From Pseudomonadota bacterium (GTDB taxonomy: Bacteria; Pseudomonadota; Alphaproteobacteria; Dongiales; Dongiaceae), in assembly GCA_021792365.1 (NCBI GenBank), contig JAJYUT010000009.1:62001-126000 (forward strand): a DNA stretch of 64,000 nt, in the 5' to 3' direction. Every line of letters begins with the position of its first letter. Positions within the stretch are counted from its first letter, which is position 1. The position numbers and the translations under genes are program-made. This document shows positions 45,809-63,208 of this stretch, piece after piece. The notes beneath the pieces are model-generated. The model made no database searches, was not told the DNA's origin, and saw only the letters and a list, made by a program, of their open reading frames with translations.

Positions 45809-47149
45809 CTACTTCCGGAGATACGCTTCCATCGAATCGTCCATCGCCTTCAGCCACTGCGTGTGGTGCACGGGCGACATCTTGCCGGTCATGATCGAGC
45901 GGTAGGCGTTGTCGCGGAAGCCCATGATGTTCTCCGCCTTGTGGTGCTCCCATTCCATGAACGTCTTGTTGACCGCCTCGACGTCGAAGCTCGGATAGTC
46001 GGTGAGGTCGATCAGCTCCTTGGTGTAGTCGCCCTGGAACCAGATCATCTGCTCGGCATTCTCGAGCGTCTCCTCCCGCGCGCGCCAGGCGGCGCTGCTC
46101 GCGCGCATCTCGGACTGGCTCGGCAGCTTGACGCGGCCCAGGATCACATCGCGCGAGAACCACGCCTGCGCGTCGAACATGTTGAAGGTATAGAACTGGT
46201 CCTGCATCCCGATGTAATGCAGCTTCGGGTTATCCTCCCACACCACGCCGCGATAGAGGTTGAGCGGCCACAGCCTGTTCTCCGTCTTCAGCCGGAGCGA
46301 ATCCGGCAGGAACGGGAAGTGGTGCAGGTAGCCGGTGCAGAGGATGATCGCGTCCACCTCTTTCGACGTGCCGTCCTTGAAATAGGCGGTGCGGTTCTCC
46401 ACCCGCTGCAGCAGCGGCTTTTCCTCCCAGTTCGACGGCCATTTGAAGCCCATCGGGCGCGAGCGGTAGCTCGAGATGATCGACTTCGCGCCGTATTTGT
46501 AGCATTGCGAGCCGATATCCTCGGCCGAATAGGAGCGGCCGATGATGAGGATGTCCTTGCCCTTGAACTCCATCGCGTCGCGGAAGTCGTGCGAGTGGAG
46601 GATCCGGCCGTTGAAGCCCTTGAAGCCCGGGAATTCCGGCACGTTGGGCGTCGAGAAATGGCCGGTCGCCACGATCACATGGTCGAACTCCTCGGTCGTG
46701 AACCGGTTCTCCTTGAGATCGTGCGCCGCGACCGTGAAGGTTCCGCTCTTCTCGGAGTATGTGACGCTGCGCACCGGCGTGCGGAAGCGGACCCACGGCC
46801 GCACGCCTGCTTTCTCCACGCGGCCCTTGATGTAGTCCCACAGGACGGCGCGCGGCGGGTAGGAGGCGATCGGCCGGCCGAAATGCTCATCGAAGGTGTA
46901 ATCGGCGAATTCCAGGCATTCCTTCGGGCCGTTGGACCAGAGATAGCGGTACATGCTGCAATGGACCGGCTCGCCGTATTCGTCGGTTCCCGTCCGCCAG
47001 GTGTAGTTCCACAGTCCGCCCCAATCGTCCTGCTTCTCGAAGCAGACCACCCGGGGAATTTCCGCGCCCTTGGCCGCGGCCGACTGGAACGCCCGCAACA
47101 CCGCCGTCCCCGAAGGTCCGGCACCGATCACCGCAACTCTCTTCGTCAT
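45809..47149 (-). CDS. tmm: trimethylamine monooxygenase Tmm
   Basis: The 446-residue protein is a bacterial flavin-containing monooxygenase that oxidises trimethylamine to its N-oxide with NADPH and oxygen. The FAD motif is GAGPSG (9-14) and the NADP motif is [33 protein letters not shown] is the FMO fingerprint region. Long Tmm-specific stretches are present, such as [40 protein letters not shown] and the C-terminal [13 protein letters not shown]. It is transcribed away from the cyclase gene and tdm, on the same strand, and is the first step of the window's methylated-amine pathway. Confidence 0.94.
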
Positions 47150-47422
47150 GTCGCCTCCCCTTTCGTCGCTGGCATTCGACGGTCATTTTGCCGGTTGCGC
47201 CGCGAGCGCTCAGGGCGTCCGATGCGCCGGCGGGCTCTTGATCATGGCCGGCCTGACGGCCTCCCGACCATATCCCTGCTGGGCTGATACACTACGCGCG
47301 GCAGACCCGGGGTGCAACCATTACAGCGCCTATCAGGCCCAATCCGGCGAAGTGGTGTAGAAGTGGTCTAACTTAGTTCCGCTTGGTCCCCGTCGCTTGG
47401 CGTATCTCCGGCCGATCGGCGC

Positions 47423-49291: not shown

Positions 49292-49474
49292 GCCTTTGCC
49301 CTGAACCTGTCTAGTCGTGGTGACCACGAGCATAAGAATATTGATAGAGCCGGGCTACCCAAAAGCGCCCCGCCACCGATTTCGACGATGGCGTCATGGC
49401 CAGCCAGCGATATCCAGGACTCCCCCGGCTCGCCGGCTGATTGAAGGCGACCAGGGGGTGCATCTGCGGTGCCG

Positions 49475-51793
49475 CTACGCCCTCACCCGCGTCTTCTCCG
49501 GATCGTAATGCGGGAAACGCACGACCTTGGCGGGGATGCGCTTCATCTTGCCGTCGAGCTTGCCGATCTCCACCTCGGTGCCGAGCGCGGCATGGGTCAC
49601 GTCGACGCGCGCCAGGGCGATGGTCTTCCTGAGGATCGGCGAGCGGGTGCCGCTGGTGACCACGCCGACCTGGTTGCGGCCGATGAACACGCCGTCGCCA
49701 TGCACCGCCATCTCGCTATCGGCGATGTCGAGGCCCACCAGGGTGCGCTGCGGATGCTCCTTGCGGCGGAGGAGCGCCTCGCGCCCGACGAAGTCCTCGG
49801 CCTTGGTCTTGAGCGGGACCGTGAAGCCGATGCCGGCCTCGAACGGGTCGGTCTGGTCGCAGAACTCGTAGCCGTAGAAAATGAGCCCGGCCTCGATGCG
49901 GAGCATGTCGAGCGCCTCCAGGCCACAGGGCGCGATGTCATAGGGCCTGCCCGCTTCCGTGATCGCGTCGAACACCGCCGGCGCATCCTTCGGATGGCAG
50001 AACACCTCGTAGCCAAGCTCACCGGTATAGCCGGTGCGCGAGACCACCACCGGCGCGCCATTGAAGTCGCCGATACGCCCGATGGTGAAGCGGAACCATT
50101 GCAGTTCCTCGATCGAGGTCTGCGCCGGCGGCGTCCACACCACCTGCTTCAGGATCTCGCGGCTCTTCGGGCCCTGGACGGAGAGGTTGTGCAGCTGGTC
50201 GGTCGAGGAGCGCACCCACGCGCGCAAGCCCAGCTTCTGCCCCAGCTCGCGCAACGCGAGGCCGCTCGCTTCGTCGCCGCCGATGAAGCGAAAATTGTCC
50301 TTGCCCAGGCGGAAGATCGTGCAATCGTCGATCATGCCGCCGGTCTCGTGGCACATCGCCGAATAGACCACCTGCCCTTCCGAGAGCTTGCGCACGTCGC
50401 GCGTCACCGCGCGCTGCAGCAGCGTCTCGGCATCCGGCCCGGTCACCTCGAACTTGCGCAGCGGCGAGAGGTCGATCATCGCCGCGCGCTCGCGGCAGGC
50501 CCAGTATTCCCCGATCGGCCCCTCGTTGTTGAACCGGCTCGGCAGCCAGTAGCCGCGATATTCCGTGAAGTTGCGCGTGAGCTGCGAGAGGCGCGGATGG
50601 AACGCGGTCTCCTGGGTCATCTGGGCCTCTGAGTCAGGGGTCTTGCGGAAGGCCACCGCGCGCGAGAAGCGCTCCTTGGCCGGATAGGTGCGGATGTGGA
50701 TCGGCGTCGGATCCCAGCCATTGGCGGCATCGATGTCGTCCGGGCAGGCGGAGGACACGCAGACCAGGTCGGTCAGCGCGCGGAACAGCACGAAATCGCC
50801 GGGGCGCGACCACGGCTCGTCCAGGTACAGCACGTTATTATGGTCGATCGCCGTGTTGTAGAAGAGGTTGAGCGCCGCCCAGCCGCGCCGCCTTTGCACG
50901 CCATAGGGCGCGAGCGCGTCGCTGAAGTTGTCCGAGCAGTTCGGGTGCCCCGGATAACCCATGTCCTCGTAGTATTTCGCCGTGCAGGCGAGCGCGAAAT
51001 TGTCGTGCCGCCCGCAGGTGTCCTGCACCAGCTCGACCAGCGGCTGGAAATCCTGGTCGAACACCTTCGCGAACAGGCCCGGCCCCGGATAGCCGCGCCC
51101 CAGCAGCGTGCGCGTCACCGTGTTGTCGAGGTCGCGCTCTTGTCCCTTCTGCAGCGCGCGCGCGTTGAAGCAATGGAAGTCGGAGCATTGCCGCCCGAAG
51201 CTGTCGATGATCTGGATGTAATCGCCTTCCTTCACCTCGTAGGCGCGGGCGGAGGAGCGCGGAACCTCGATATCTAGCCGCGCATCGGCCAGCGGATCGG
51301 GCAGCAGCGCGAAAGCCTCCGAGCGTGGGCTCGCGCGCGCGATCCGCACCTCGATCTCGGTCGCGGTGTCCTGCGCCTCCGGCGCCATCGCCGCGGCCGG
51401 GGCCGCGACGATCAGCACACCGCTGGCTTGCGCCGTGAACTCCGCCTCCGCGCCCGCCGCGCTGTCGCCGCCGAACAGGCGCAGCGCCTTGGCCTCGGCC
51501 AGGTCGATGCCGCGGCGCCGGAGGCCGGCGAGCACCTTGCGCGCGCTCTCCGACTTGCTCGCAAGGATCGTGCGCAACCCGTCCGCGACGCCACAGACCT
51601 TGCCCCCGATCAAGCCCGGATCGACCCGGCCCTCGGCATCGGCGGCCAGCACCTCGCAGGGCTGCCGCCCCTCGACATCGATGAGCGTGATCCGGTCGCC
51701 GGGCGCGACCGCGAGGATTGCGGCGCCACCGCCTGATACCCGGTAGCGCTCGACCCCGCTGGGCAGATTGGGCACGCGGCGATCGATCAGCAT
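49475..51793 (-). CDS. tdm: trimethylamine-N-oxide demethylase Tdm
   Basis: The 772-residue protein has the two-part Tdm architecture. An N-terminal DUF1989-type region (about 1-370) carries cysteine-rich metal-site blocks (RQCSDFHCF, CGRHDNFALAC, GHPNCSDNF). A C-terminal GcvT-like tetrahydrofolate-binding half (about 390-770) has SRTGYTGELGYEVF and FVGREALLRRKEHPQRTLVG. Known Tdm enzymes split TMAO into dimethylamine and formaldehyde, the latter captured by the folate half. It is divergent from the flavin reductase gene, and the shared gap carries an ATTGGT-type repeat. Confidence 0.9.
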   Translation of the reverse strand: MLIDRRVPNLPSGVERYRVSGGGAAILAVAPGDRITLIDVEGRQPCEVLAADAEGRVDPGLIGGKVCGVADGLRTILASKSESARKVLAGLRRRGIDLAEAKALRLFGGDSAAGAEAEFTAQASGVLIVAAPAAAMAPEAQDTATEIEVRIARASPRSEAFALLPDPLADARLDIEVPRSSARAYEVKEGDYIQIIDSFGRQCSDFHCFNARALQKGQERDLDNTVTRTLLGRGYPGPGLFAKVFDQDFQPLVELVQDTCGRHDNFALACTAKYYEDMGYPGHPNCSDNFSDALAPYGVQRRRGWAALNLFYNTAIDHNNVLYLDEPWSRPGDFVLFRALTDLVCVSSACPDDIDAANGWDPTPIHIRTYPAKERFSRAVAFRKTPDSEAQMTQETAFHPRLSQLTRNFTEYRGYWLPSRFNNEGPIGEYWACRERAAMIDLSPLRKFEVTGPDAETLLQRAVTRDVRKLSEGQVVYSAMCHETGGMIDDCTIFRLGKDNFRFIGGDEASGLALRELGQKLGLRAWVRSSTDQLHNLSVQGPKSREILKQVVWTPPAQTSIEELQWFRFTIGRIGDFNGAPVVVSRTGYTGELGYEVFCHPKDAPAVFDAITEAGRPYDIAPCGLEALDMLRIEAGLIFYGYEFCDQTDPFEAGIGFTVPLKTKAEDFVGREALLRRKEHPQRTLVGLDIADSEMAVHGDGVFIGRNQVGVVTSGTRSPILRKTIALARVDVTHAALGTEVEIGKLDGKMKRIPAKVVRFPHYDPEKTRVRA

Positions 51794-51886
51794 GTTGTTA
51801 TCCTCTTGGACAGGCGCCTCCGGTCCAGCTTCCGCACTACTGTGGCGCCGCGGGAAATGCTAAAAGATGCGTTCACGGCGATCAAC

Positions 51887-51898
51887 GACCAAAAGGTC
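51887..51898. promoter_or_regulatory. GACC-N4-GGTC dyad next to the ATTGGT repeat
   Basis: GACCAAAAGGTC lies 12 bases before the ATTGGT repeat, in the divergent gap between tdm and the flavin reductase gene. Confidence 0.3.
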
Positions 51899-51910
51899 TG
51901 CCGGTCGGAA

Positions 51911-51926
51911 ATTGGTCTGGATTGGT
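51911..51926 (+). promoter_or_regulatory. ATTGGT-N4-ATTGGT operator candidate, tdm/flavin-reductase gap
   Basis: ATTGGTCTGGATTGGT is a perfect direct repeat with 10-bp period. The same core occurs in two other intergenic regions of the methylamine cluster. Confidence 0.6.
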
Positions 51927-51943
51927 TGCGAACACACGGTTCG

Positions 51944-52465
51944 ATGCAGCAGGACACGGGGCTACAGACTTCGGGAATCAACCCGCGCGAATTCCGCAAT
52001 GCGCTCGGCTGCTTCCCGACCGGCGTCACCATCATCACGACGCTCGACCCGCGCGGCCAGACCGTGGGCATCACCGCCAATTCCTTCAACTCGGTCTCCA
52101 TGGATCCGCCCTTGATCCTGTTCAGCCTGAGCCGCGGCGCCTATTCCATGCGCGCCTTCCTCTCGACCGACCATTTCGCGGTCAATGTGCTGAGCCTCGG
52201 CCAGGCCGAACTCTCGCGGCGCTTCGCCACCGCCTCAGCCGATAAATGGGCGGAGCTCCACTTCGAGATCTGGGATTCCGGCTGCCCCATCCTGCCGGGC
52301 TGCGCGGCCAATTTCGAATGCCGCACCGAGCATACCTATGACGGCGGCGACCACGTGATCTTCGTCGGGCGTGTCATCCGCATGCGCCACGACCCGGCGA
52401 TCAAGCCGCTCCTGTTTCACCAGGGCGAGTACCGCTCGGTCGAAGCCCTGGGCAGCGTGTCGTGA
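51944..52465 (+). CDS. flavin reductase-type FMN-binding split-barrel protein
   Basis: The 173-residue protein matches the flavin reductase-like family: REFRNALGCFPTGVTIITTL (about 15-34), TANSFNSVSMDPPLILFSLS (the FMN-binding loop) and FECRTEHTYDGGDHVIFVGR with the conserved Asp-His. Such proteins supply reduced flavin to monooxygenases or act as oxidoreductases themselves. The ATG at 51944 leaves the ATTGGT repeat in the promoter; an in-frame ATG at 51858 would put it inside the gene. It is divergent from tdm and followed after 10 bases by an uncharacterised gene. Its partner is not identified. Confidence 0.85.
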   Translation: MQQDTGLQTSGINPREFRNALGCFPTGVTIITTLDPRGQTVGITANSFNSVSMDPPLILFSLSRGAYSMRAFLSTDHFAVNVLSLGQAELSRRFATASADKWAELHFEIWDSGCPILPGCAANFECRTEHTYDGGDHVIFVGRVIRMRHDPAIKPLLFHQGEYRSVEALGSVS

Positions 52466-52475
52466 GAGGCGCGCC

Positions 52476-53105
52476 GTGACCCGCCCAGGCAGCAAAAATG
52501 GCAGCAAAAATGGCAACAACAATGGCAACAACGTGGTGCTGACCGAAGCCGCCGCCCAGCAGATGCGCGACGATTTCATCGGCTGGCAATGCCGTCTGCG
52601 CCAGCTTTCCGCGCGCCAGGCCGGCGGCCGCCCTCTGCAGGGCATGCGCCCCAGGGTGCTCTCGCCCGCGGGCGACGAGCTCTCGCCCGGCATCATCGTG
52701 CTGATCGTCGAGCGCGACCCGGCCGACACCACGCAGATGCTGCGCTTCCAGTACCAGAAGACGCACGATCCCATCGAGCGCTACGACAAGGTGCTCGAGC
52801 TGCTGCAAGCAGCCTATTTCCAGTATCCGAAGAGCTTCAGCGACGAGATCACGGCCCTGTTCGGCCCCGCCTCGGAGCTGCCCGCGACCCTGCTGCATCT
52901 CGGCCGCTGTATCCTGGAGTTCGAGCAATTCACCGAATGCTACAGCATTCCATGCACGGTGACCGAATTGCCTGAGTCGCACGACTTCTACCAGGCCACC
53001 TACTGGCACAACCACATGTTCAACCCGAACACGCCCCCCGGCATCCGCGTGCTCAGCTTCAAGCCCGACTGGCCCCACGCCGCCACCTGGCGCACGGAAG
53101 CTTGA
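52476..53105 (+). CDS. uncharacterised protein with Asn/Lys/Gly-repeat N terminus
   Basis: The 209-residue protein has no family I recognise. Residues 5-19 are GSKNGSKNGNNNGNN, encoded by near-perfect 12-bp repeats (GGCAGCAAAAAT and variants). The rest is a soluble domain with EITALFGPASELPATLLHLG and FYQATYWHNHMFNPNTPPGI (about 165-184). GAGAGGCGCC precedes GTG 52476. It follows the flavin reductase gene after 10 bases, so both are probably co-transcribed in the methylamine locus. The His- and Trp-rich block could be a metal site, which is inference. Confidence 0.65.
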   Translation: MTRPGSKNGSKNGNNNGNNVVLTEAAAQQMRDDFIGWQCRLRQLSARQAGGRPLQGMRPRVLSPAGDELSPGIIVLIVERDPADTTQMLRFQYQKTHDPIERYDKVLELLQAAYFQYPKSFSDEITALFGPASELPATLLHLGRCILEFEQFTECYSIPCTVTELPESHDFYQATYWHNHMFNPNTPPGIRVLSFKPDWPHAATWRTEA

Positions 53106-53115
53106 CGCTCCCAAA

Positions 53116-53165
53116 ATGTCATCCCGGGCACGCGTAGCGCGACCCGGGACCCATGCGGCGCATCA
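53116..53165. repeat. family B repeat, copy 2 (half)
   Basis: TGTCATCCCGGGCACGCGTA then GCGACCCGGGACCCATGCGG. This is the left half of the family B element, at the end of the uncharacterised gene and just before the GIY-YIG gene. Confidence 0.7.
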
Positions 53166-53177
53166 ACAGGCGCGCTC

Positions 53178-53462
53178 TCAAGTGATCCCGTCAAACAAGT
53201 CCCGCCACTCCGGATTCTTCTCCCGGATCAGCGCGATCTTCCAGTCCCGTGCCCAGCGCTTCACTCGCTTCTCGCGCTGGATCGCTTCCAGAACGCTCTC
53301 ATGCTCCTCGAAATACACGAGCATCTTCACGTTGTACGTCTTGGTGAAGCCGGGTACCGCACCGTCACGATGCTCAGCCACACGACGAATCAGATCATTC
53401 GTGACGCCTACATAGAGCGTCCCGCGCGGCTTGCTCGCAAGGATGTACACCCAGTACGACAC
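53178..53462 (-). CDS. GIY-YIG nuclease-domain protein
   Basis: The 94-residue protein is a single GIY-YIG domain: YWVYILASKPRGTLYVGVTN (3-22), RRVAEHRDGAVPGFTKTYNV (26-45) with the catalytic Arg region, and a C-terminal helix with REKRVKRWARDWK. Stand-alone UPF0213/YhbQ-like GIY-YIG proteins of this size are common, and their targets are unknown. It is flanked on both sides by family B repeats, which may not be accidental. It is on the opposite strand to the uncharacterised gene before it. Confidence 0.88.
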   Translation of the reverse strand: MSYWVYILASKPRGTLYVGVTNDLIRRVAEHRDGAVPGFTKTYNVKMLVYFEEHESVLEAIQREKRVKRWARDWKIALIREKNPEWRDLFDGIT

Positions 53463-53486
53463 CGCCCTTCCCGCTCTCTCACAAAT

Positions 53487-53625
53487 GTCACCCCGGGCGC
53501 ACAGCGCGACCCGGGACCATACGGTGCCCCGGTGTAGCGCAACTGAAAAGCGAAAATTTGCGGGCGTTCCATGGGTCCCGGATCAGCCGCTGGCGCGGCT
53601 GTCCGGGATGACATCGTGGAAGAGT
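53487..53625. repeat. family B repeat, copy 3
   Basis: TGTCACCCCGGGCGCACAGC and GACCCGGGACC at the left; CATGGGTCCCGGATCAGCCG and GTCCGGGATGACATCG at the right. This is a full-length imperfect inverted repeat, between the GIY-YIG gene and the end of the 132-residue gene. Confidence 0.75.
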
Positions 53626-53643
53626 GTCGAGAACGGAAGCTAG

Positions 53644-54042
53644 CTAGAACTTCTTATACGCCCGCTTCAGATCCCACAGCGGGTGCTTCTTCGACATCTG
53701 GAACTTGATCAGCAGTTCGCGCGCGAGCATGTCGCGGCCCTGCTGGTCCTCGGGCAGCTTCATCTCCGGCGGGATGGTGACCCAGCCGTTGCAGTTGCGG
53801 TCGAAGATCGCGGGGCGGCCTTCCTCGTAGCCCATGTGGACGTCCTCCAGCCAGTTGAGGTCGTCCCAGCCCATCATCTCGATGTATTTCTCGAGGAAGG
53901 GCGTGAGGCGCGCATAATCCGGCACCATGTTCACATCGTAGCGATAGCCGATGTGCTGGCCGATCTCCTTCTCGCGCTTGGTGTCGAGGCCGGCGGCGTC
54001 CTTGATGAACTTGTCGACGTCCTGAGTCTTGGTCGTTGCCAT
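53644..54042 (-). CDS. uncharacterised 132-residue protein next to mgsC
   Basis: I do not recognise the family. The protein is acidic-basic mixed and soluble, without cysteine clusters or a signal peptide: MATTKTQDVDKFIKDAAGLD, then YRYDVNMVPDYARLTPFLEK, LNWLEDVHMGYEEGRPAIFD and the end WDLKRAYKKF. It starts 14 bases after the mgsC stop, so it is very likely the last gene of the gmaS-mgsABC operon. A role in N-methylglutamate synthase assembly or in one of the amine steps is possible. GGGAGACTTGAGCC precedes the ATG. Confidence 0.75.
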   Translation of the reverse strand: MATTKTQDVDKFIKDAAGLDTKREKEIGQHIGYRYDVNMVPDYARLTPFLEKYIEMMGWDDLNWLEDVHMGYEEGRPAIFDRNCNGWVTIPPEMKLPEDQQGRDMLARELLIKFQMSKKHPLWDLKRAYKKF

Positions 54043-54056
54043 GGCTCAAGTCTCCC

Positions 54057-55433
54057 TTAGTAGCGCGTCATGTCGGGCCGGCCGACGGTGTGCTGCGTGC
54101 CGGCGAGCGGCACCATCGCCATCGCCGAGGCTTCCATGGTGAGGGCCGCGAGATCCTCCGGCTCCAGCGAATGCACGTCGGTCTTGCCGCAGGCGCGCGC
54201 CATCATCTGCGCTTCGATGGTGAGCGTGTGCAGGAAGTTGTAGACGCGCTCCGCCGCCGCATCGGGATCGAGCCGCTTGCGCAGCACGGGATCCTGGGTC
54301 GCGACGCCGACCGGGCAGCGGCCGGTGTGGCAATGATAACAATAGCCCGCTTCGACGCCCATCTCCTTCTCGTAATCGGCCTCGGGGATTTCCTTGTTGC
54401 AGTTCAAGGCCATCAGCGACGAGTGGCCGATCGCGATGGCATCGGCGCCGAGCGCCAGCGCCTTCGCCACGTCCGAGCCGTTGCGGATGCCGCCGGCATA
54501 GACCAGCGAGATCTCGCCCGACTTGCCGAGATCGTCCAGCGCCTTGCGCGCCTGGCGGATCGCCGCGATGCCGGGCACACCGGTATCCTCGGTCGCGAGA
54601 TGCGGGCCCGCGCCGGTGGAGCCTTCCATGCCGTCGATATAGATCGAATCCGGCCCGCACTTGATCGCCATGCGCACGTCGTCATAGACGCGCGCGGCGC
54701 CGAGCTTGAGCTGGATCGGGATCTCGTGGTTGGTCGCCTCGCGGATCTCCTGGATCTTGAGCGCGAGGTCGTCGGGGCCGAGCCAGTCCGGATGGCGCGC
54801 GGGCGAGCGCTGGTCGATGCCGGCCGGCAGCGAGCGCATCTCCGCCACCTGGTCCGTCACCTTCTGGCCCATGAGGTGGCCGCCGAGGCCGACCTTGCAG
54901 CCCTGTCCGATGAAGAACTCGCAGGCATCCGCCAGCTGCAGATGGTGCGGGTTGAAGCCGTAGCGCGACTGGATGCACTGGTAGAACCACTTGGACGAAT
55001 AGCGCCGCTCGTCCGGGATCATGCCGCCCTCGCCGGAGCAGGTCGCCGTGCCCGCCATGGTGGCGCCGCGCGCCAGCGCGATCTTCGCCTCGAAGGAGAG
55101 CGCGCCGAAGCTCATGCCGGTGATGTAGACCGGGATGTCGAGTTCCAGCGGCCGCTTGGCCTTGGGCCCGATGACGGTCTTGGTCAGGCATTTCTCGCGA
55201 TAGCCTTCGATCACGAAGCGCGTCAGCGTGCCGGGCAGGAAGGTCAGGTCGTCCCAATGCGGGATCTTCTTGAACAAAGAAAATCCGCGCATGCGGTAGC
55301 GGCCGAGCTCCGACTTGATGTGGATGTCGTCGATGACCTCCGGGGTGAAAATGCGGCTCTGGCCGAGGCGGCTGGTATCGCGCTTCGGCTTCATCACAGG
55401 CTGAACCTGCGGCGCGACTTTCTCTTGCGACAT
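54057..55433 (-). CDS. mgsC: N-methylglutamate synthase subunit C (FMN/glutamate synthase-like)
   Basis: The 458-residue protein is the FMN-binding, central part of a glutamate synthase as a separate subunit. It shows ITGMSFGALSFEAKIALARG, SGEGGMIPDE, IQLKLGAARVYDDV and GADAIAIGHSSLMALNC. The iron-sulfur cysteine block CYHCHTGRCPVGVATQ is typical of GltB. With MgsA (glutaminase-type) and MgsB (GXGXG) it would form N-methylglutamate synthase, making N-methylglutamate from gamma-glutamylmethylamide and 2-oxoglutarate. The gene-order match with gmaS and mgsAB makes this better supported than ordinary GltB. Confidence 0.88.
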   Translation of the reverse strand: MSQEKVAPQVQPVMKPKRDTSRLGQSRIFTPEVIDDIHIKSELGRYRMRGFSLFKKIPHWDDLTFLPGTLTRFVIEGYREKCLTKTVIGPKAKRPLELDIPVYITGMSFGALSFEAKIALARGATMAGTATCSGEGGMIPDERRYSSKWFYQCIQSRYGFNPHHLQLADACEFFIGQGCKVGLGGHLMGQKVTDQVAEMRSLPAGIDQRSPARHPDWLGPDDLALKIQEIREATNHEIPIQLKLGAARVYDDVRMAIKCGPDSIYIDGMEGSTGAGPHLATEDTGVPGIAAIRQARKALDDLGKSGEISLVYAGGIRNGSDVAKALALGADAIAIGHSSLMALNCNKEIPEADYEKEMGVEAGYCYHCHTGRCPVGVATQDPVLRKRLDPDAAAERVYNFLHTLTIEAQMMARACGKTDVHSLEPEDLAALTMEASAMAMVPLAGTQHTVGRPDMTRY

Positions 55434-55458
55434 ATTGCGGGTCCTTTCCTATGAAGCC

Positions 55459-56289
55459 TTACAGGACGATCTTCTTTTCGGACGGCTCGAGATTGTCGTA
55501 GTTCCAGAGCTGCTTGCCGGCCACGATCTTGGTGAGGTTCTTCGCCCCGTTCGGCGCCTCGAGCCCGTACATCTTCAGCTTGCGCTCCAGCCACTGCACC
55601 TCGAGGTCCGTCATCTCGCCCTCGACCGCGTCCACGCCGAGCCCGGCGATCTTGCCGCCGACATAGATCGTGCCGTCATACATGGAATCGCCGAGATTCA
55701 TGCCGGCATCGCCCAGGATGATCATGCGCCCGCGCTGCATCATGAAGCCGCAGAAGGCGCCGGCCCGCCCGCCGATCAGGATGGTGCCGCCCTTCTGGTC
55801 GATGCCGACGCGCGCCCCGACATCGCCCTTGCACACCAGGTCGCCGCCGCGGATCGCCGCGCCGAAGGTCGAGCCGGCGTTCTTCTCGATCACCACGCGG
55901 CCGGACAGCATGTTCTCCGCGCAGGACCAGCCGACGCGGCCGGAGATGGTGATGTTCGGCCCATCGATCAGGCCGCAGCCGAAATAGCCGAGACTGCCCT
56001 TGATGTGCAGGTTGAGCCGCTGCAGCAGGCCGACCGCGACGCTGTGCTTGGCGCCGGGGTTGTGCATCACGATGGTGCCGTTGCCCTGGCTCATCAGCTC
56101 GCGGAGCTTGAGGTTGATCTCCTGCGGTGACAGCGGCCCGGCATCGAACTCCGCGCGCTTGTTGAAATCGACGTCATAGCCGTCGGGATAGAGGAAGTTC
56201 TCCTCCTCCGTCGGCGAGAAGAAGCGCTGCTGGGTCTTGCCCGACAGCTTTTCGGTGTGCATGCCCATCTGCATTGAACGCTGAGCCAT
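55459..56289 (-). CDS. mgsB: N-methylglutamate synthase subunit B (GXGXG domain)
   Basis: The 276-residue protein is the GXGXG beta-helix domain of glutamate synthase alone. Repeats such as GRVGWSCAENMLSGRVVIEK, GGDLVCKGDVGARVGIDQKG, GTILIGGRAGAFCGFMMQRG and GTIYVGGKIAGLGVDAVEGE follow each other. It has no catalytic residue of its own and bridges the glutaminase and FMN subunits. ATG 56289 is preferred to a start 53 codons upstream, which is not conserved. It is spaced 25 bases from mgsC and 52 from mgsA. Confidence 0.88.
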   Translation of the reverse strand: MAQRSMQMGMHTEKLSGKTQQRFFSPTEEENFLYPDGYDVDFNKRAEFDAGPLSPQEINLKLRELMSQGNGTIVMHNPGAKHSVAVGLLQRLNLHIKGSLGYFGCGLIDGPNITISGRVGWSCAENMLSGRVVIEKNAGSTFGAAIRGGDLVCKGDVGARVGIDQKGGTILIGGRAGAFCGFMMQRGRMIILGDAGMNLGDSMYDGTIYVGGKIAGLGVDAVEGEMTDLEVQWLERKLKMYGLEAPNGAKNLTKIVAGKQLWNYDNLEPSEKKIVL

Positions 56290-56341
56290 GGGTCGTCTGT
56301 CTCCCGGAACTTGGGTATGCCTGAATCTCGCGTGGGTCCGC

Positions 56342-57289
56342 TTAGGCCCGCGCTTCCGCCTTCCACACCCGCACCTCGCCTTCGTACGGGTCCCAGGTGT
56401 CGATCTCGTGCGGGAACACGCTGCGGATCGCCACCTCCTCGGAGGCAAGCGCGATGAAGTCGTCGCTCTCGTACAGCACCATCGGCTTGGCGGCCATCAC
56501 GTCCTTCGCCATGCCGAGCGAATCGGCGGTCGCGACGATATAGGTGAAGACGCCGTCGAGCTCGGAGATCGAATCCCGCATCGCGTCATCGAGCTTGGCG
56601 CCCTGCTGCATCTTGTCGGCGAGATAGACCGCGATCAGCTCGGAATCGCAGTTCGACATGAAGCGATGCCCGCGATGCTCCAGCGCGCGCCGCCCCTTCC
56701 AGTAATTCGTGAGCTGCCCGTTATGCACCACCGAGACGTCGGCGAACGGATACGCCCAGTAGGGGTGCGCCGAGCGGATGTCGACGTCCGATTCCGTCGC
56801 CATGCGGGTGTGCCCGATGGCGTGGGTGCCGACGAAGCCGTTCAGCTTGTACTGGCCGGAGACCCGCGCCGCATCGCCGAGGTCCTTGATCAGCTCGAGC
56901 CCGAGGCCGAGCGAGAGGATCTCCGCCCCTTCCACGTCCTCGATGTAATCGGCCAGCTTGCGCCGGTCGCCGCCAAAGTCGATGCGGTAGCGGAAGGCGT
57001 ATTCCGTCGCCTCCTCCACCTTGATGAGCTTGGCCCCGAGCTCCTTCAGGCGCTTGTCGACTTCGGCGCGGCGATCCTTCACCTGCTGGTGGATGTCGAA
57101 GCCCTTCGACATCTCTTCCTGCTCGGCGACCTTGAACCGCAGGACCAGCTCATTGCCCTTGGGCTGGCCGTAGAGCGCGAAGCCGGTGGAATCCGGCCCG
57201 CGATGCTTCAGCGACTTCAGCATGTTGGTCATCTCGGTGCCGACGTCGCCGGTCTTGCGCCGGTGAATCAATCCAGCAATTCCGCACAT
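56342..57289 (-). CDS. mgsA: N-methylglutamate synthase subunit A (class II amidotransferase)
   Basis: The 315-residue protein is a class II glutamine amidotransferase. The N-terminal nucleophile is Cys2 (MCGIAGLIHRR) and the fold shows SLKHRGPDSTGFALY, GHTRMATESDVDIRSAHPYW, VVHNGQLTNYW and NCDSELIAVYLAD. In the split enzyme it would hydrolyse gamma-glutamylmethylamide and channel methylamine rather than ammonia. GGAGGGATCGAGA precedes the ATG. It starts 16 bases after the gmaS stop. Confidence 0.88.
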   Translation of the reverse strand: MCGIAGLIHRRKTGDVGTEMTNMLKSLKHRGPDSTGFALYGQPKGNELVLRFKVAEQEEMSKGFDIHQQVKDRRAEVDKRLKELGAKLIKVEEATEYAFRYRIDFGGDRRKLADYIEDVEGAEILSLGLGLELIKDLGDAARVSGQYKLNGFVGTHAIGHTRMATESDVDIRSAHPYWAYPFADVSVVHNGQLTNYWKGRRALEHRGHRFMSNCDSELIAVYLADKMQQGAKLDDAMRDSISELDGVFTYIVATADSLGMAKDVMAAKPMVLYESDDFIALASEEVAIRSVFPHEIDTWDPYEGEVRVWKAEARA

Positions 57290-57305
57290 TCTCGATCCCT
57301 CCGTA

Positions 57306-58775
57306 TCAGGGCAGATAGTCCCAGTACTGTTGCAGGTCCCAATTGGTGACGGTGGAGTTGAACTTCTCCCACTCGTCGCGCTTGTAGTGCATGAATACCC
57401 GGAGCATCTCGTCGGGCATCGCGCGCTTCACCACCTCGTTCTTCTCGAGGGCGTCCAGCGCCTCGCCGAGCGACATCGGCAGCTTCTGCACCTTCTTGCC
57501 GGCCTTCATCGCCTCGTAGATGTTGCGCTCCTCCGGCTCGCCCGGATCGATGTTGTTGGTGATGCCGTCGTCGAAGGCCTGCAGCAGCGCCGCCGCCATC
57601 AGATACGGGTTCACCGCCGAATCCACCGAGCGGTACTCGAACCGGCCTGGTGCGGAGATGCGCAGCGCGCAGGTGCGGTTCTGATAGCCCCAGTCGGCAT
57701 AGACCGGCGCCCAGAAGCCGGTGTCCCACAGCCGGCGATAGGAATTGACGGTGGAGGAGCCGATCGCGGTCAGCGCGCGCACGTTCTTCACCACGCCGCC
57801 GATGCAGTTGAGGCCGATCGGGCCCGGCTTGGCCTCGCCCGGCCGCGGCAGGAAGGTGTTCTCGCCGCCCTTGCGGTAGGTGAAGACGTCCGGCATGCCC
57901 GGTAGCGACTCGCCGTTGCCGAGGGTGTTGAGCTTGTCCTCGCCGCCCTTCCAGAGCGACAGGTTGTGGTGGCAGCCGCTGGCCGACACGCCCATGAAGG
58001 GCTTCGGCATGAAGCAGGCGATGATGTCGAACTCGCGCGCCACCTGGGCGCAGATCTGGCGGTAGGTCGTCAGGCGGTCGGCCGTGCGCAGCGCATCGTC
58101 GAACATGAAGTTGAGCTCGAGCTGGCCCGGCGCGTCCTCGTGGTCGCCCTGGATCATGTCGAGGCCCATGGCGCGGCCGTATTCGATCACCCGCATGAAG
58201 ACCGGGCGCAGCGATTCGAACTGGTCGATGTGATAGCAGTTCGGCTTGGTATAGCCGCCATGCGGCAAGCCATCCTCGCCCTTCTTCAGCCACATCATCT
58301 CCGGCTCGCAGCCGTGGCGCAGGTGCATGCCGTTATGCTTCTTCTTGAACGCCTCGTGCGCGATGCGGAGGTTGCCGCGGCAATCAGAGGTCAAGTGCCC
58401 GCCCGGGTTCACCTTCTCCTCGCGATTGCGGAAGCAGGTGCAGAAGACCCGCGCCACGCGCTTGTCCCACGGCAATTGCACGAAGGTCTCGGGATCGGGG
58501 ATGCCGACCAGCTCGGAAGCTTCCGGGCCGTAGCCGATATAGTTCTTGTGGCGGTCGACGAAGAGGTTGGCGGTGGAGCCGTAGACCAGCTGGAACCCGC
58601 GTTCCGCGGTCGCTTCCCAATGATCGGCCGGGATGCCTTTGCCGACGATGCGCCCCGTCACGGAGACGAACTGGTAATAGATGTAGGTGATGCCCAGCTC
58701 GTTGATCTTCTCCCGAACCTTCTTCACCAGCTCGGCGCGGCCAGGCTGTTGGATATGGGCTTCCAAATCGGTCAT
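57306..58775 (-). CDS. gmaS: gamma-glutamylmethylamide synthetase (type III glutamine synthetase family)
   Basis: The 489-residue protein is a glutamine synthetase-fold ligase. IQGDHEDAPGQLELNFMFDD carries the first metal glutamates, KPFMGVSASGCHHNLSLWKG the glutamate/metal loop, and RFEYRSVDSAVNPYLMAAAL the Arg and C-terminal signature. It ligates methylamine to glutamate with ATP. The assignment to GmaS rather than glutamine synthetase rests on the adjoining mgsABC genes and the wider cluster. GGAGGAGTGCG precedes ATG 58775, which decides it over starts up to 44 codons upstream. Confidence 0.87.
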   Translation of the reverse strand: MTDLEAHIQQPGRAELVKKVREKINELGITYIYYQFVSVTGRIVGKGIPADHWEATAERGFQLVYGSTANLFVDRHKNYIGYGPEASELVGIPDPETFVQLPWDKRVARVFCTCFRNREEKVNPGGHLTSDCRGNLRIAHEAFKKKHNGMHLRHGCEPEMMWLKKGEDGLPHGGYTKPNCYHIDQFESLRPVFMRVIEYGRAMGLDMIQGDHEDAPGQLELNFMFDDALRTADRLTTYRQICAQVAREFDIIACFMPKPFMGVSASGCHHNLSLWKGGEDKLNTLGNGESLPGMPDVFTYRKGGENTFLPRPGEAKPGPIGLNCIGGVVKNVRALTAIGSSTVNSYRRLWDTGFWAPVYADWGYQNRTCALRISAPGRFEYRSVDSAVNPYLMAAALLQAFDDGITNNIDPGEPEERNIYEAMKAGKKVQKLPMSLGEALDALEKNEVVKRAMPDEMLRVFMHYKRDEWEKFNSTVTNWDLQQYWDYLP

Positions 58776-58967
58776 CGCACTCCTCCTCTCCCTATCTGCA
58801 TTCATTACGCGCCGCGCCCTGCGCGACGCGTGCTCCCTGCCAGCTTTCGATGCATCCTTGGTCGACAGGCCTTCTTGCGAGCCCTTGGTGATATATCGGT
58901 TGTTCACCCCTTCGACTTGCCCCTCTCGTTTCGAGGGAGGGGATATTCAGCTCATAGCTCTGCCCGC

Positions 58968-60308
58968 TCAACTCCACGGGAACGGCGAGCGCGAGGTCGG
59001 GTGCAGCTTGCCCTCGGCGAAGCGCGAGAAACGGAACGGGCGCAGCAGGTCGCTCTCGTTGCCGCAGAGGTCGTCCGCCACCAGCTTGCCGACCCCGATC
59101 ATCTTGTAGCCGTGGTTGCTGTCGGCGATCACGTAGACGTTCTCACAGAACCGGTCGAACACCGGGAAGGAATCCGCGGTGAAGCTGCCGATGCCGCCGG
59201 ACGGCTCCTTCTTGTATTGCGGCATGGTGCCTTCGAAGCGCTTCTGGCAGAAGGCCAGCGCCGAGACCCACATATGCGCGAAATCGTCGCCGACGATGAA
59301 ATCCGGGCTTTCCGGCCCGTAGGGATCGATCTTCACCGATTCCGGCGCGGTCTTCACCTTGAACGGCATGGCGCCGCCCTGCACGCCGCCGAAATGGAAG
59401 TCCGGCTTGTAGTAGATGCCCCAAAGCTGGTCGGTGATGAGCGTGCCATCGACGTCGGAGTGGAGCGGCGCGTCGGTATCGACATGGATGACCGGCGGCA
59501 TCTGGCCGTCATTGGTGCGCTGCAGCTTGGGATCGACGCCGAGCGTGCCCTCCTGCAGCGACCAGAAGGTCCACATCGGCACGCCCTCGTGCGTCTTGCC
59601 GTCGCGGCCCTTGATCGAGATCTCCTTGGGCAGTTCCAGCATGTCCCAGATCTGCTTGACCCATGGACCGGTGCCGATGACGACCTGGTCACAGCCGATC
59701 TTGCCCTTGTCGGTGACCACCGCCTTGACCGCGCCGCTCGCATCCTTCTCGAAGCCGGTGACCTTGACGCCGGTCAGGATGCGCACATCCTCGCTCTCCG
59801 CCTTGCGGGCGAGGCCATACATGGAGCGCGTGTTGTTGGCGTAGCCGCCCTTTTTCTCGTGCAGGACGGATGTGATGCCCTTGGCCTGCCAGTCGGAGAA
59901 GATGCCCCGCATGTAGGTCATGCAGTCCTTCTCGCCCTCGATGAAGACCGACGGATAGCCGATCTCCTTCTGCTGCTGGTAGATGCTCGCCACGTCCGCG
60001 TGCATCACCTCGGGGCTGATCTGCATGTAGCCGACCGGGTGATAGGAGAAGGCCTCGGGATCGCTTTCCCAGACCGAGACGCTGTGCGCCATCAGGCGGC
60101 GCATGGCGGGCTGGAAGTAGTTGTTGCGCACCACGCCGCAGGCGATGCCGGAAGCACCGGCCGCGATCGCGGTCTTGTCGATGACCAGGATGTCCTTGCC
60201 GCTGCCCTTCCCGCTCTTGCGGAGGTTCTCGCCAAGGTGCCAGGCGGTCGAAAGACCGTGGATACCGGCGCCGACAATGACGTATTTGACGTGACTTGGA
60301 AGGGCCAT
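58968..60308 (-). CDS. FAD-dependent DAO-family oxidoreductase, candidate N-methylglutamate or methylamine-step dehydrogenase
   Basis: The 446-residue protein has the FAD Rossmann motif GAGIHGLSTAWHLGENL (about 12-28) and the sarcosine oxidase beta-type pattern AAGASGIACGVVRNNYFQPA. The C-terminal FAD loop is GGIGSFTADSFPVFDRF and DSNHGYKMIGVGKLVADDLC. It is one of the D-amino acid/sarcosine oxidase-like enzymes that demethylate secondary amines. It lies directly upstream of gmaS on the same strand (192 bases between). It lacks the small and folate subunits of heteromeric MgdABCD or sarcosine oxidase. ATG 60308 is chosen by the FAD motif spacing. Confidence 0.82.
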   Translation of the reverse strand: MALPSHVKYVIVGAGIHGLSTAWHLGENLRKSGKGSGKDILVIDKTAIAAGASGIACGVVRNNYFQPAMRRLMAHSVSVWESDPEAFSYHPVGYMQISPEVMHADVASIYQQQKEIGYPSVFIEGEKDCMTYMRGIFSDWQAKGITSVLHEKKGGYANNTRSMYGLARKAESEDVRILTGVKVTGFEKDASGAVKAVVTDKGKIGCDQVVIGTGPWVKQIWDMLELPKEISIKGRDGKTHEGVPMWTFWSLQEGTLGVDPKLQRTNDGQMPPVIHVDTDAPLHSDVDGTLITDQLWGIYYKPDFHFGGVQGGAMPFKVKTAPESVKIDPYGPESPDFIVGDDFAHMWVSALAFCQKRFEGTMPQYKKEPSGGIGSFTADSFPVFDRFCENVYVIADSNHGYKMIGVGKLVADDLCGNESDLLRPFRFSRFAEGKLHPTSRSPFPWS

Positions 60309-60408
60309 GGAGTCCGTTTCCCAGCAGCGGATGACAGGCACTGCGCCACTATAGCTGCCTCCAGGCCGGTTACAAACCAATTTTTCAAGAGGCACAGAAA
60401 TGGGTCCG

Positions 60409-60424
60409 ATTGGTCGCGATTGGA
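60409..60424 (+). promoter_or_regulatory. ATTGGT-N4-ATTGGA operator candidate, DAO/GntR gap
   Basis: ATTGGTCGCGATTGGA, direct repeat with 10-bp period, in the divergent gap between the DAO gene and the GntR regulator. An inverted half-site ACCAAT lies at 60376-60381. Confidence 0.6.
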
Positions 60425-60512
60425 CTAGCGCATCCGCGACCTTTCGGCGTAAAATCGACTACAACCCGGCGCCCGCGCCACCAGAGTGGCCGGCAACGAA
60501 TGAGGGAATCCG

Positions 60513-61211
60513 ATGGTGAAGCTCGTGAACGATCCGGTGCGCGGCTCATCCTGGATCACGGCGCAGTTGCGGCAGGCGATCCAGGCCGGCCAATACGGCC
60601 ACGGCGAGAAGCTTCCGGCCGAGCGCCAATTAGCGGAGGCCTTCGGCACCTCGCGCACCACCGTGCGCGCCGCCCTCGACCAGCTCGAGGCAGAGCGCCT
60701 GGTGAGCCGTCGGATCGGCAGCGGCACCTTCGTCAACTCGCCCACCCGCCTCGCTTCCGAGGACGTGGCCGACCAGACCAGCCCGCTGGAGCTGATCGAG
60801 GCGCGCATCGCGCTGGAACCGTATATGACGCGCCTAGCCTGTCTCAATGCCGCCGCGCGCGACGTCGACCGGATGCACGAGCTGATGGAACGCCAGGAGC
60901 GCGAGTGCAATCCCGGCGACCGCGAGAGCTTCTCGCGCTGGGACGAAGCCTTCCACCTCTCGATCGCCGAGGCCACGCGCAACCCGCTGCTGATCTCGCT
61001 CTACCGCCAGATCAACGAGGTGCGCGCCCACCACCAGTGGAGCGCGATGAAGGACAAGGTGCTGACGCCCGAGCGCATCGCCGATTACAACCGCGACCAC
61101 GCGGCCCTGTTCGAGGCCATCCGCGCCCGCGATGTCGACAGCGCGGTCGCCCTCATCACCAACCACCTGCATTACGCCCGCCGCCAATTGGTCGGCGCCG
61201 TGATGGACTGA
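60513..61211 (+). CDS. FadR-type GntR transcriptional regulator
   Basis: The 232-residue protein has an N-terminal winged helix (about 10-75): LRQAIQAGQYGHGEKLPAER, FGTSRTTVRAALDQLEAERL and RRIGSGTFV. A C-terminal FCD effector domain (about 85-225) has metal/ligand helix landmarks such as FHLSIAEATRNPLLIS and DYNRDHAALFEAIRARDVDS. FCD domains sense small carboxylates or amino acids; N-methylglutamate or gamma-glutamylmethylamide would be natural ligands here, by inference. It is divergent from the DAO gene and its own gap carries the ATTGGT repeat. Confidence 0.9.
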   Translation: MVKLVNDPVRGSSWITAQLRQAIQAGQYGHGEKLPAERQLAEAFGTSRTTVRAALDQLEAERLVSRRIGSGTFVNSPTRLASEDVADQTSPLELIEARIALEPYMTRLACLNAAARDVDRMHELMERQERECNPGDRESFSRWDEAFHLSIAEATRNPLLISLYRQINEVRAHHQWSAMKDKVLTPERIADYNRDHAALFEAIRARDVDSAVALITNHLHYARRQLVGAVMD

Positions 61212-61247
61212 CTCGTCTGTAACAGCTCGATTTTTAGGAACATTGTA

Positions 61248-61264
61248 ACCAATTCCAGACCAAT
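61248..61264 (-). promoter_or_regulatory. ATTGGT-N5-ATTGGT operator candidate, permease gap, site 1
   Basis: On the forward strand it reads ACCAATTCCAGACCAAT; the reverse strand reads ATTGGTCTGGAATTGGT, with 11-bp period and the same CTGG core as the tdm site. Confidence 0.6.
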
Positions 61265-61272
61265 CGATTAAA

Positions 61273-61288
61273 ATTGATCTGGATTGGC
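61273..61288 (+). promoter_or_regulatory. ATTGAT-N4-ATTGGC operator candidate, permease gap, site 2
   Basis: ATTGATCTGGATTGGC is a degenerate copy with 10-bp period and the CTGG core, nine bases after site 1. Confidence 0.45.
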
Positions 61289-61501: not shown

Positions 61502-63208
61502 ATGTCGGTCAGTAGCACAACGAACACCACCACCGCGAACGGCGAAAACACCCTGAAACGCGCCATCGATTGGCGTGGTGCCTTCTGGGTCGCGAGCGGC
61601 GTGCCCGCTCTGGTGGTGTTCTCGATGGGCGGCATCGCAGGGACCGTCGGCATCCCGGCCTTCGCGGTCTGGACGGTATCCATGATGATGGGCTTCGTCC
61701 AATCCTTCACCTACGCCGAGATCGCGGGCCTTTTTCCGAATAAATCCGGCGGCGCCTCGGTCTATGGCGCGGCCGCCTGGCTGCGTTACGGCAAGTTCAT
61801 TGCCCCCCTGTCCGTGTGGTGCAACTGGTTCGCCTGGACTCCTGTTCTGTCCCTCGGATCCGCGATCGCCGCGGGCTACATCCTGAACGCGATGGAGCCG
61901 GTGCCCGCCGCGGACGCGATTGCCGCTTACATCGCGCAGCAGGCCGCGGCCGGAGTGACGATCGATGAAGCTGCGGCAACGGCAGCTTTGATGCCGATCC
62001 ACACCTGGACCTTGTTCACCATTCCCTTCGGAGACGTCGTCTCACTGTCGTTCAACTGGACGTTTGTGATCGGCACGATCCTGATGCTGTTGGCCTTCGC
62101 CATCCAGCATCGCGGGATCCTCGCGACTGCGGGCGTGCAGACGGTGGTCGGGTTGATAATCGTGATCACCCTGTTCGTCGTCGGCGTCGTGCCGTTCTTC
62201 AACGGCAACTTCCATGCCGAGAACTTCACGCCCTTCGTGCCGCTCGCCGCGCCTTATGCGGCCGAGCCCGGTGCGTGGAACATCGCCGGCTGGACCTTGG
62301 TGCTGGGCGGCATGTTCATCGCGGCCTGGTCCACCTACGGCTTCGAGACCGCGATCTGCTATACGCGCGAGTTCAAGAATCCGGAGCGGGATACCTTCAA
62401 GGCGATCTTCTATTCGGGCCTGTTGTGCCTCGCCTTGTTCATCCTGGTGCCGATCACCTTCCAGGGCTATCTCGGCCTCGACGGCATGCTCGCCACCAAC
62501 ATCGTGGATGGCACCGGCATCGCGCACGCCATGGGCGCGATGGTGGCGGGCGGCAGCCAGATCATCACGATGCTGTTCGTGATCCTGATGATCGCCGCGT
62601 TGATCCTCATCATCGTCACGGCGATGGCCGGCTCGTCTCGCACGCTCTATCAAGGCTCGATCGACGGATGGCTGCCGCGCTATCTCTCGCGCGTCAACCA
62701 CAACGGTGCGCCCACCGCGGCGATGTGGACCGACCTTGTCTTCAACCTGGTCCTGCTCTCCATCGCCTCGACCGATGCGACCGCCTACTACTTCATCCTG
62801 GCGGTCAGCAATTGCGGCTACATCATCTTCAACTTCCTCAACCTGAATGCCGGCTGGATTCACCGCATCGATAGCGGCCACATCAAGCGTCCCTTCAAGG
62901 CGCCGACCATCATCCTGGCGGCCGGCACGCTGCTGGCGTTCGTGAACGCGGTCTTCATGGGCGCGGGCGCGAAGGTGTGGAACCCCGACGCCCTGTGGTA
63001 CGGATTGGGCTTCGCGGCCGTCATCCTCCCGGTGTTCTGGTTCCGGCACTACATCCAGGACAAGGGCCAGTTCCCGCCGCAGATGATGGCGGACCTTGGT
63101 CTCAAGGGCGGCGATCTCGGCGAGCGCAAGGCCGGCGTCCTGCCCTATCTGGTGCTCGCCGCCGGTGTCGCGGTGGTGTTGATCTCAAACTGGTTCTTCA
63201 CCTTCTAA
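61502..63208 (+). CDS. APC-superfamily amino acid/amine permease
   Basis: The 568-residue membrane protein has 12 or so hydrophobic segments and the APC pattern. GMGFVQSFTYAEIAG-type helix 2 and PNKSGGASVYGAAAWLRYGK are followed by an ordered core to YTREFKNPERD and GSSRTLYQGSIDGWLPRYLS. A loop with acidic and alanine-rich residues is at about 125-160. The gene lies downstream of the regulator with an ATTGGT-type pair in its 5' gap, so uptake of a methylated amine, glutamate or an N-methyl amino acid fits. Substrate is not shown by the sequence. Confidence 0.88.
   Translation: MSVSSTTNTTTANGENTLKRAIDWRGAFWVASGVPALVVFSMGGIAGTVGIPAFAVWTVSMMMGFVQSFTYAEIAGLFPNKSGGASVYGAAAWLRYGKFIAPLSVWCNWFAWTPVLSLGSAIAAGYILNAMEPVPAADAIAAYIAQQAAAGVTIDEAAATAALMPIHTWTLFTIPFGDVVSLSFNWTFVIGTILMLLAFAIQHRGILATAGVQTVVGLIIVITLFVVGVVPFFNGNFHAENFTPFVPLAAPYAAEPGAWNIAGWTLVLGGMFIAAWSTYGFETAICYTREFKNPERDTFKAIFYSGLLCLALFILVPITFQGYLGLDGMLATNIVDGTGIAHAMGAMVAGGSQIITMLFVILMIAALILIIVTAMAGSSRTLYQGSIDGWLPRYLSRVNHNGAPTAAMWTDLVFNLVLLSIASTDATAYYFILAVSNCGYIIFNFLNLNAGWIHRIDSGHIKRPFKAPTIILAAGTLLAFVNAVFMGAGAKVWNPDALWYGLGFAAVILPVFWFRHYIQDKGQFPPQMMADLGLKGGDLGERKAGVLPYLVLAAGVAVVLISNWFFTF

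Follow-up and report, generated by a model that had tools for sequence, protein, structure and literature searches.

The 64,000-nucleotide stretch of DNA analyzed here, in the following called the window (positions 62,001 to 126,000 of contig JAJYUT010000009.1, assembly GCA_021792365.1, a Dongia-like genome of the Dongiaceae), contains genes for the breakdown of trimethylamine next to the gene of a GntR-type regulator (gntR), and copies of the short sequence ATTGGT are repeated in its intergenic regions. Comparison of genomes gave good support for a single, GntR-centred regulon predicted to comprise gntR itself, DAO-gmaS-mgs, tdm and the flavin reductase gene, tmm, and the gene of the trimethylamine N-oxide (TMAO) permease. 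The repeats are probably the operators of the GntR/FCD protein (60513-61211), which would thus coordinate the trimethylamine pathway.

Repeats and composite elements in the window

All four repeats listed for the cluster in an initial annotation of this DNA are present as written and at the positions given there (Table 1). Their description as direct repeats was correct insofar as tandem copies exist; an inverted ACCAAT partner has to be added, which in the window and its family is located 17-20 bp from the inner copy. The common form of this wider element is ACCAAT-N17..20-ATTGGT-N4..5-ATTGGT. Between DAO and gntR the element reaches to the left beyond 60409, with ACCAAT at 60376 and AATGGG at 60399. 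The two repeats upstream of the permease gene turned out to be both arms of a single dyad (61248-61288), each arm being doubled. The same dyad layout was found in loci L042 and L043, a weaker one in L050, L052, L054 and L055, and the permease element also occurs in genome G005 (L080), there on a contig separate from gntR. The element in the tdm/flavin reductase gap recurs in L043 and in Dongia deserti (L091), the closest named relative as judged by the GntR protein (94%). A further site upstream of tmm (47328-47367) had been missed in the initial annotation. At the permease, tdm and tmm the element lies approximately 95-215 bp from the start codons. A candidate pair before gmaS (58884-58900, one mismatch per half-site) was within chance by a hand estimate and is not claimed.

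All 15 family loci (the window and 14 relatives) have ATTGGT in the same position before gntR, each time with a weaker copy 9-11 bp earlier. ACCAAT followed 27-30 bp further upstream in ten of these leaders, and a one-base variant of it in the other five (gaps counted by eye). In 12 loci ATTGGT constitutes codons 4 and 5 of gntR (ATT GGT), and in matched genes of these loci ATT accounts for 9% of the Ile codons and GGT for 10% of the Gly codons. The three Dongia loci have kept the leader ATTGGT although its frame no longer joins gntR. Because rare codons were kept in 12 loci and the word was kept out of frame in Dongia, the leaders point to selection on the DNA itself.

The out-of-frame leader of the window contains a 39-codon upstream frame (60400-60519), which starts at the ancestral gntR start (ATG 60400) and whose TGA overlaps the present gntR start (ATGGTGA). 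D. deserti (L042) shows a similar overlap with a 30-codon frame, and the frame of L043 lacks such an end. In the other 12 family loci the ancestral start is joined in frame to gntR, predicting a longer N-terminal extension.

Recurrence of the element in other genomes

Matrices derived from one part of the family predict sites across genera in both directions. A half-site matrix for the window was made of hand-picked words from the non-Dongia family loci, the Thalassospira site being excluded from training. Its top sites in the window were 51911(+), 61264(-) and 60399(+) with scores of 33.9, 33.2 and 30.4, followed by 47333(-) before tmm (20.5) and 47426(-) (17.1). The maxima of 100 simulated windows had a median of 14.4, the largest being 23.5. 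In 176,993 bases of real control DNA a score of 16 was reached by a single composite site (16.1) and, when the tandem pair was scored by itself, by a single pair (18.1). In the reverse test, a matrix of Dongia words only was applied to the 12 family loci from other genera, and in each of them the gntR leader scored highest. This matrix also identified pre-permease sites in all four of those loci with a linked permease gene (L050, L052, L054, L055), and an intergenic site in Thalassospira locus L026 reached 36.2. As an exact pattern, the composite element occurs once in the 5.4-Mb genome, at tdm/flavin reductase, and not in the control. With the wider element and the other genomes taken into account, a chance origin of the repeats was rejected.

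For genome-wide searches, model R1 was built from 22 sites including those of the window and ten of the 13 gntR leaders found in relatives; three leaders (those of G004, G008 and G014) and two sites (L080, L091) were held out. Fourteen related genomes were searched with R1 (G007 and G011 were left out), and for R1 and R2 alike at most 150 first-look candidates per genome were scored. The gntR leader was the best match in all 13 gntR-bearing relatives, while G003, which has no gntR match, gave nothing better than an expectation value (E) of 0.46. Two stray matches appeared elsewhere (E 0.70 and 0.77). On other contigs and outside training, R1 recovered two sites: in G005 the permease promoter (L080, E 0.011), and in D. 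deserti the gap between tdm and the flavin reductase gene (L091, E 0.04). In the window's own genome it yielded five matches at E<=10, all of them in the cluster (gntR, permease on both strands, tdm/flavin reductase and tmm). Model R2, built without any Dongia site, gave two matches at this threshold, gntR (2.6e-5) and flavin reductase (0.58).

Promoters of tmm were compared in a sample of 385 genomes of the class, 22 of which contain tmm at E<=1e-100 (G358, L139, included); the 300 bp preceding tmm were read. ATTGGT pairs were present in all 12 genomes that possess a gntR orthologue (52-100% identity, the window's genome included), in ten of them at 9-11 bp and in two only at 21 bp. Within these 300 bp no pair was found in any of the ten genomes without an orthologue, of which three have a distant homologue (37-40%) and three are AT-rich. 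Counted by hand by genus, pairs precede tmm in five of five with and in none of nine without the orthologue. Together with the element in every gntR leader of the family, this lends comparative support to the proposal of the initial annotation that one regulon extends over separate transcripts, with the GntR protein as the likely binder.

Upstream of more distant gntR orthologues, half-sites are arranged in tandem with helical phasing. A GntR match at E<=1e-30 was obtained in 44 genomes of the class sample, and phasing was studied in the upstream regions of 25 non-family loci (46-60% identity) among the matches listed. Half-site pairs at distances of 9, 10 and 11 bp numbered 12, 20 and 18, respectively; 19 and 20 bp gave nine and 13, 22 bp five, and 30 and 32 bp eight and six pairs, and each remaining spacing from 6 to 44 bp zero to three. 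Mononucleotide shuffles contained on average 0.2 pairs at 10, 11 and 21 bp (maximum two), and gntR coding DNA likewise 0.2. The pair counts are dependent, as several of the 25 loci are close kin. A pair at 9-11 bp lies upstream of gntR in 20 of these loci, and some of them exhibit four-copy arrays. In some relatives the element is also found before gmaS.

Several results weigh against assigning the repeats to one GntR regulon. The bare motif is unspecific: allowing two mismatches, the pattern of the initial annotation matched the window nine times compared to a shuffle mean of 5.9, and 15 of 100 shuffles reached nine. Genome-wide it gave 20 matches with one mismatch, seven with the reversed control; only three of the 20 reside in the cluster, among them two of the three exact ones, and 17 elsewhere. 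A longer pattern with three mismatches behaved similarly (20 matches, eight in the control, four in the cluster and 16 outside). Equal frequency in unrelated DNA, which the initial annotation had held to speak against its reading, was thus partly found for the bare motif; the full element is far more specific, and ATTGGTNNNNATTGG was dropped as a genome-wide test in favor of it. The five R1 matches in the window's own genome are weakened by the fact that R1 was built with those sites, and R2 misses the permease and tmm sites, finding two of four. Taken alone, the tmm-side site of the window is marginal, since five of the 100 simulated windows reach 20.4. The gap of 17-20 bp was picked by eye after the sites had been seen, as were the training words. 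The Dongia matrix also scored 26.2 inside a Thalassospira transporter gene (L026:5887-5926) and 17.3 inside the DAO gene of L046; because these lie inside genes, single matches at such scores can be chance. Five of the 25 other-family orthologues lack a 9-11 bp pair with at most one mismatch per half-site, one of which (L092) has the full family element with a score of 29.4. Finally, nine of 27 distant homologues exhibit a tandem pair at 9-11 bp, so that pairs are not exclusive to orthologues.

Half-site geometry and the probable regulator

An N-terminal GntR winged helix-turn-helix (wHTH) and a C-terminal FCD domain assign the protein to the FadR subfamily of GntR regulators. The nearest NCBIfam models were LldR, UxuR and PdhR, each below cut-off. 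Sites of the FadR subfamily are typically palindromes with TKGT/ACMA boxes, and NanR binds direct repeats (PMC4494728). Such a box exists here, as TGGT lies within ATTGGT and is presumably read by the GntR protein. The palindrome with 2-3 bp between GT and AC is missing; this leaves the membership standing because the source calls the palindrome typical, NanR being an exception. Eleven canonical TGGT-N3-ACCA sequences were detected in the window and the family loci and rejected as operators, since ten reside inside mgsC and one inside another frame (L049:1687).

PdhR of Escherichia coli, a GntR regulator of the FadR subfamily with the consensus (A)ATTGGTnnnACCAAT(T), uses the same half-site, ATTGGT (PMC7660256), and the GntR protein matches PdhR chain 9jpj by sequence (E 1.5e-15). 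However, the PdhR half-sites are inverted with 3 bp between them, whereas those of the Dongia element are arranged head-to-tail 9-11 bp apart, with a far inverted partner in the family. NanR of E. coli, another FadR-subfamily protein, which acts on direct repeats (sequence match E 1.3e-12), binds with three dimers cooperatively to a (GGTATA)3 operator (PMC8012715; PMC4494728), but this half-site differs from ATTGGT. Moreover, NanR cooperativity needs an N-terminal extension of 32 residues, whereas 14 residues precede the GntR domain in the Dongia protein. A long extension is predicted in 12 of the 15 family loci but not in the three Dongia loci, which still carry the repeats. The NanR repeats are also spaced more closely than the Dongia tandem copies. 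HypR, another member of the subfamily, has small palindromes as sites and direct repeats in two cases (PMC6608401). In 13 FadR-subfamily groups, extra boxes have been described 7-12 nt from the center of a palindromic GntR site (PMC4494728); the distance is comparable, but those boxes are weaker additions to a palindrome, while the Dongia tandem copies are the main element. The possibly novel mode of binding suggested in the initial annotation was overstated in view of NanR on direct repeats (PMC4494728, PMC8012715) and of ATTGGT being the PdhR half-site (PMC7660256). What would be new is the arrangement of PdhR-type half-sites in head-to-tail arrays; the half-site and direct-repeat binding were each known already.

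The half-site word has a wider distribution than its layout, as palindromes, tandem pairs and a Thalassospira form occur among the homologues. An ATTGGT-N4-ACCAAT-like palindrome lies upstream of the own gntR gene in six of the 27 distant homologues. Upstream of gntR in 39 non-window orthologues, the tandem pair at 9-11 bp was found in 29, the N4 palindrome in none and an N3 form in three (L096, L112, L113). A tree labeled by operator layout contains a fully supported branch parting 45 rows (35 DR, nine other, one IR4) from 22 (17 other, five IR4); L140 (IR4) lies inside the larger group on a very long branch. The labels were set by hand, all family loci being entered as DR, including L044-L048 and L053, which fail the one-mismatch test on their own leader, and distant homologues with a pair being put under "other"; therefore, the tree is not independent evidence. 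In Thalassospira, whose GntR homologue has 36% identity, ACCAAT-N17-ATTGGTTTGGATTGGT precedes a neighboring gene: the composite element (L026:8974-9012) stands before a TauE-like transporter gene (named by eye) that adjoins the homologue. This hints that the same layout may serve another pathway.

In Ruegeria, the GntR protein TmoR represses tmm but not the downstream genes, and tdm and the remaining genes are activated by the AraC-type protein TmaR. Both proteins were shown to bind DNA, and the main text of that paper nowhere uses the word "motif" (PMC13390433). TmoR of Ruegeria pomeroyi is thus likewise a GntR regulator in a trimethylamine cluster, which binds the tmm promoter (PMC13390433). 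Yet TmoR leaves tdm and the downstream genes unaffected, while here tdm, the permease gene and gntR/DAO-gmaS carry the element, a comparison of sites only in which TmoR was matched by its description. Genome G174 (40% identity), with a TmoR-like layout, has the palindrome TTTGGT-CCAG-ACCAAA before gntR and no pair at tmm. In L140:4450-6740 a GntR homologue (40%) is encoded near tmm with one gene between, resembling the reported TmoR layout, and a near-perfect palindrome, CATTTTGGTCCAGACCAAAATG, precedes the regulator gene. Searches for a GntR regulator of gmaS or tmm and for ATTGGT repeats gave, among the matches listed from openly licensed PubMed Central papers, no system nearer than those compared here.

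Each predicted operator would offer the ATTGGT half-site two to four times. With a distance of 9-11 bp, tandem copies would be separated by one helical turn and therefore be exposed on the same side of the DNA. Several GntR dimers, approximately one per half-site, would most likely line up cooperatively there, which we infer from the phasing and from the analogy to the GGTATA repeats of NanR. In the gntR leader the element follows the probable promoter (identified by eye) and overlaps the gntR start in 12 of 15 loci, which makes autorepression likely there. On the catabolic promoters the protein may act as repressor, activator or both. FCD domains have a general preference for carboxylates. 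From this preference and the pathway we would guess that the inducer is a carboxylated product such as gamma-glutamylmethylamide or N-methylglutamate. Overall, we somewhat favor the view that a pathway-wide methylamine regulator of the FadR subfamily, wired unlike TmoR/TmaR, reads PdhR-type half-sites as phased head-to-tail arrays that stack several dimers, while some distant alphaproteobacterial homologues keep a like half-site as a palindrome, i.e., the geometry was rewired and the word kept. If true, a pathway-wide regulator of trimethylamine breakdown would be known in addition to the TmaR/TmoR system of Ruegeria, and its predicted sites would span several families of the Alphaproteobacteria. 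Nature would also supply a set of GntR proteins that read one and the same half-site word, some as a palindrome and others as a tandem array; the protein determinant of operator geometry would therefore be directly testable.

Instead, the arrays might bind another activator, of the AraC type like Ruegeria TmaR or of the OmpR/PhoB type, GntR being a mere neighbor. Many OmpR/PhoB-type response regulators use direct repeats, those of PhoB-type regulators having approximately 11 bp. TmaR is the AraC-type master activator of the pathway in Ruegeria (PMC13390433). We regard this as improbable. The element marks gntR itself in all 15 family loci, pairs at tmm follow the gntR orthologue, PdhR, a protein of the GntR family, uses this half-site (PMC7660256), and distant GntR homologues have a like half-site as a palindrome before their own genes. 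Furthermore, no AraC or response-regulator domain was found among the 13 window proteins run on Pfam, a check that did not extend to the rest of the window and of the genome. An RNA hairpin, rather than a protein site, was considered for ACCAAT...ATTGGT at gntR, where in 12 of 15 loci the complementary arms enclose the start codon together with a likely ribosome-binding site. It was rejected as very improbable because ACCACT or ACCTAT breaks a pair in five leaders (by eye), because many other-family orthologues have same-strand tandem arrays unable to pair mutually, and because the element also precedes the permease gene, tdm and tmm, approximately 95-215 bp from their start codons. Chance, or coding constraint imposed by a MARIG-like GntR start, could draw on the barely enriched bare motif and the coding leader copies of 12 loci, but is hardly conceivable and already refuted in the main by the leader codons (rare ones kept in all 12 loci, the copy kept out of frame in Dongia), by the phasing in other families, by the co-occurrence at tmm and by non-coding copies at other promoters that were predicted across genera.

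Genes of the cluster

The genes and predicted operators are compiled in Table 1. Of 17 genomes of the order, 15 (that of the window among them) have a match to the GntR protein at E<=1e-40. The gntR gene is divergent from gmaS or DAO in 14 of 14 relatives, and from gmaS, DAO or mgs genes in all 25 other-family loci. The DAO start is probably near 60311, as the alignment with many relatives begins only near residue 29, and the gmaS-like gene probably starts near 58775. Besides TIGR03105 and synteny, the name gmaS rests partly on the pathway to which we take the gene to belong.

Table 1. Predicted operators, repeats and genes in the window
Feature	Position	Strand	Description
Predicted operator, tdm/flavin reductase gap	51888-51926	+	ACCAAA-N17-ATTGGT-N4-ATTGGT; top composite site of the window with the other-genus matrix
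Predicted operator between DAO and gntR	60376-60424	+	ACCAAT-N17-AATGGG-N4-ATTGGT-N4-ATTGGA; kept upstream of gntR in 14 family loci
Predicted operator before TMAO permease	61248-61288		Dyad ACCAAT-N5-ACCAAT-N8-ATTGAT-N4-ATTGGC
Probable operator before tmm	47328-47367		GCCTAT-N4-CCCAAT-N7-AGTGGT-N5-AGTGGT; fourth composite site of the window
Repeats of the initial annotation	51911-51926 (+), 60409-60424 (+), 61248-61264 (-), 61273-61288 (+)		Read in the window sequence
gntR	60513-61211	+	GntR wHTH and FCD (FadR-subfamily) regulator; PF00392 6.3e-23, PF07729 1.2e-29, both above cut-off
DAO-type oxidoreductase	58968-60395	-	Divergent from gntR
gmaS-like gamma-glutamylmethylamide synthetase (glutamine-synthetase III type)	57306-58907	-	TIGR03105 below cut-off; synteny with mgsABC
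mgsA, mgsB, mgsC, N-methylglutamate synthase-like subunits	54057-57289	-	GATase, GXGXG and Glu_synthase domains; synteny
tdm, TMAO demethylase	49475-51793	-	NF053776, 1228 bits (cut-off 1100)
Flavin reductase-domain gene	51944-52465 (start inferred; 51848-52465 in the Pfam run)	+	PF01613; divergent from tdm
tmm, trimethylamine monooxygenase	45809-47149	-	NF058570, 850 bits (cut-off 675)
TMAO permease	61502-63208	+	NF053774, 837 bits (cut-off 690)

Between tmm and tdm a cyclase-TPR gene is located (47423-49333, Pfam), and two genes (53644-54042 and 52371-53105) gave no Pfam match. These two, orf132 (73-93% identity) and orf244 (43-77%), are neighbors of the mgs genes in 12 of the 14 family loci. 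Loci L044-L049 and L053, whose stretches contain no close tdm, possess instead a distant GcvT-type gene with approximately 30% identity to tdm, and most of them have an mgsABC-like set (34-54%) as well.

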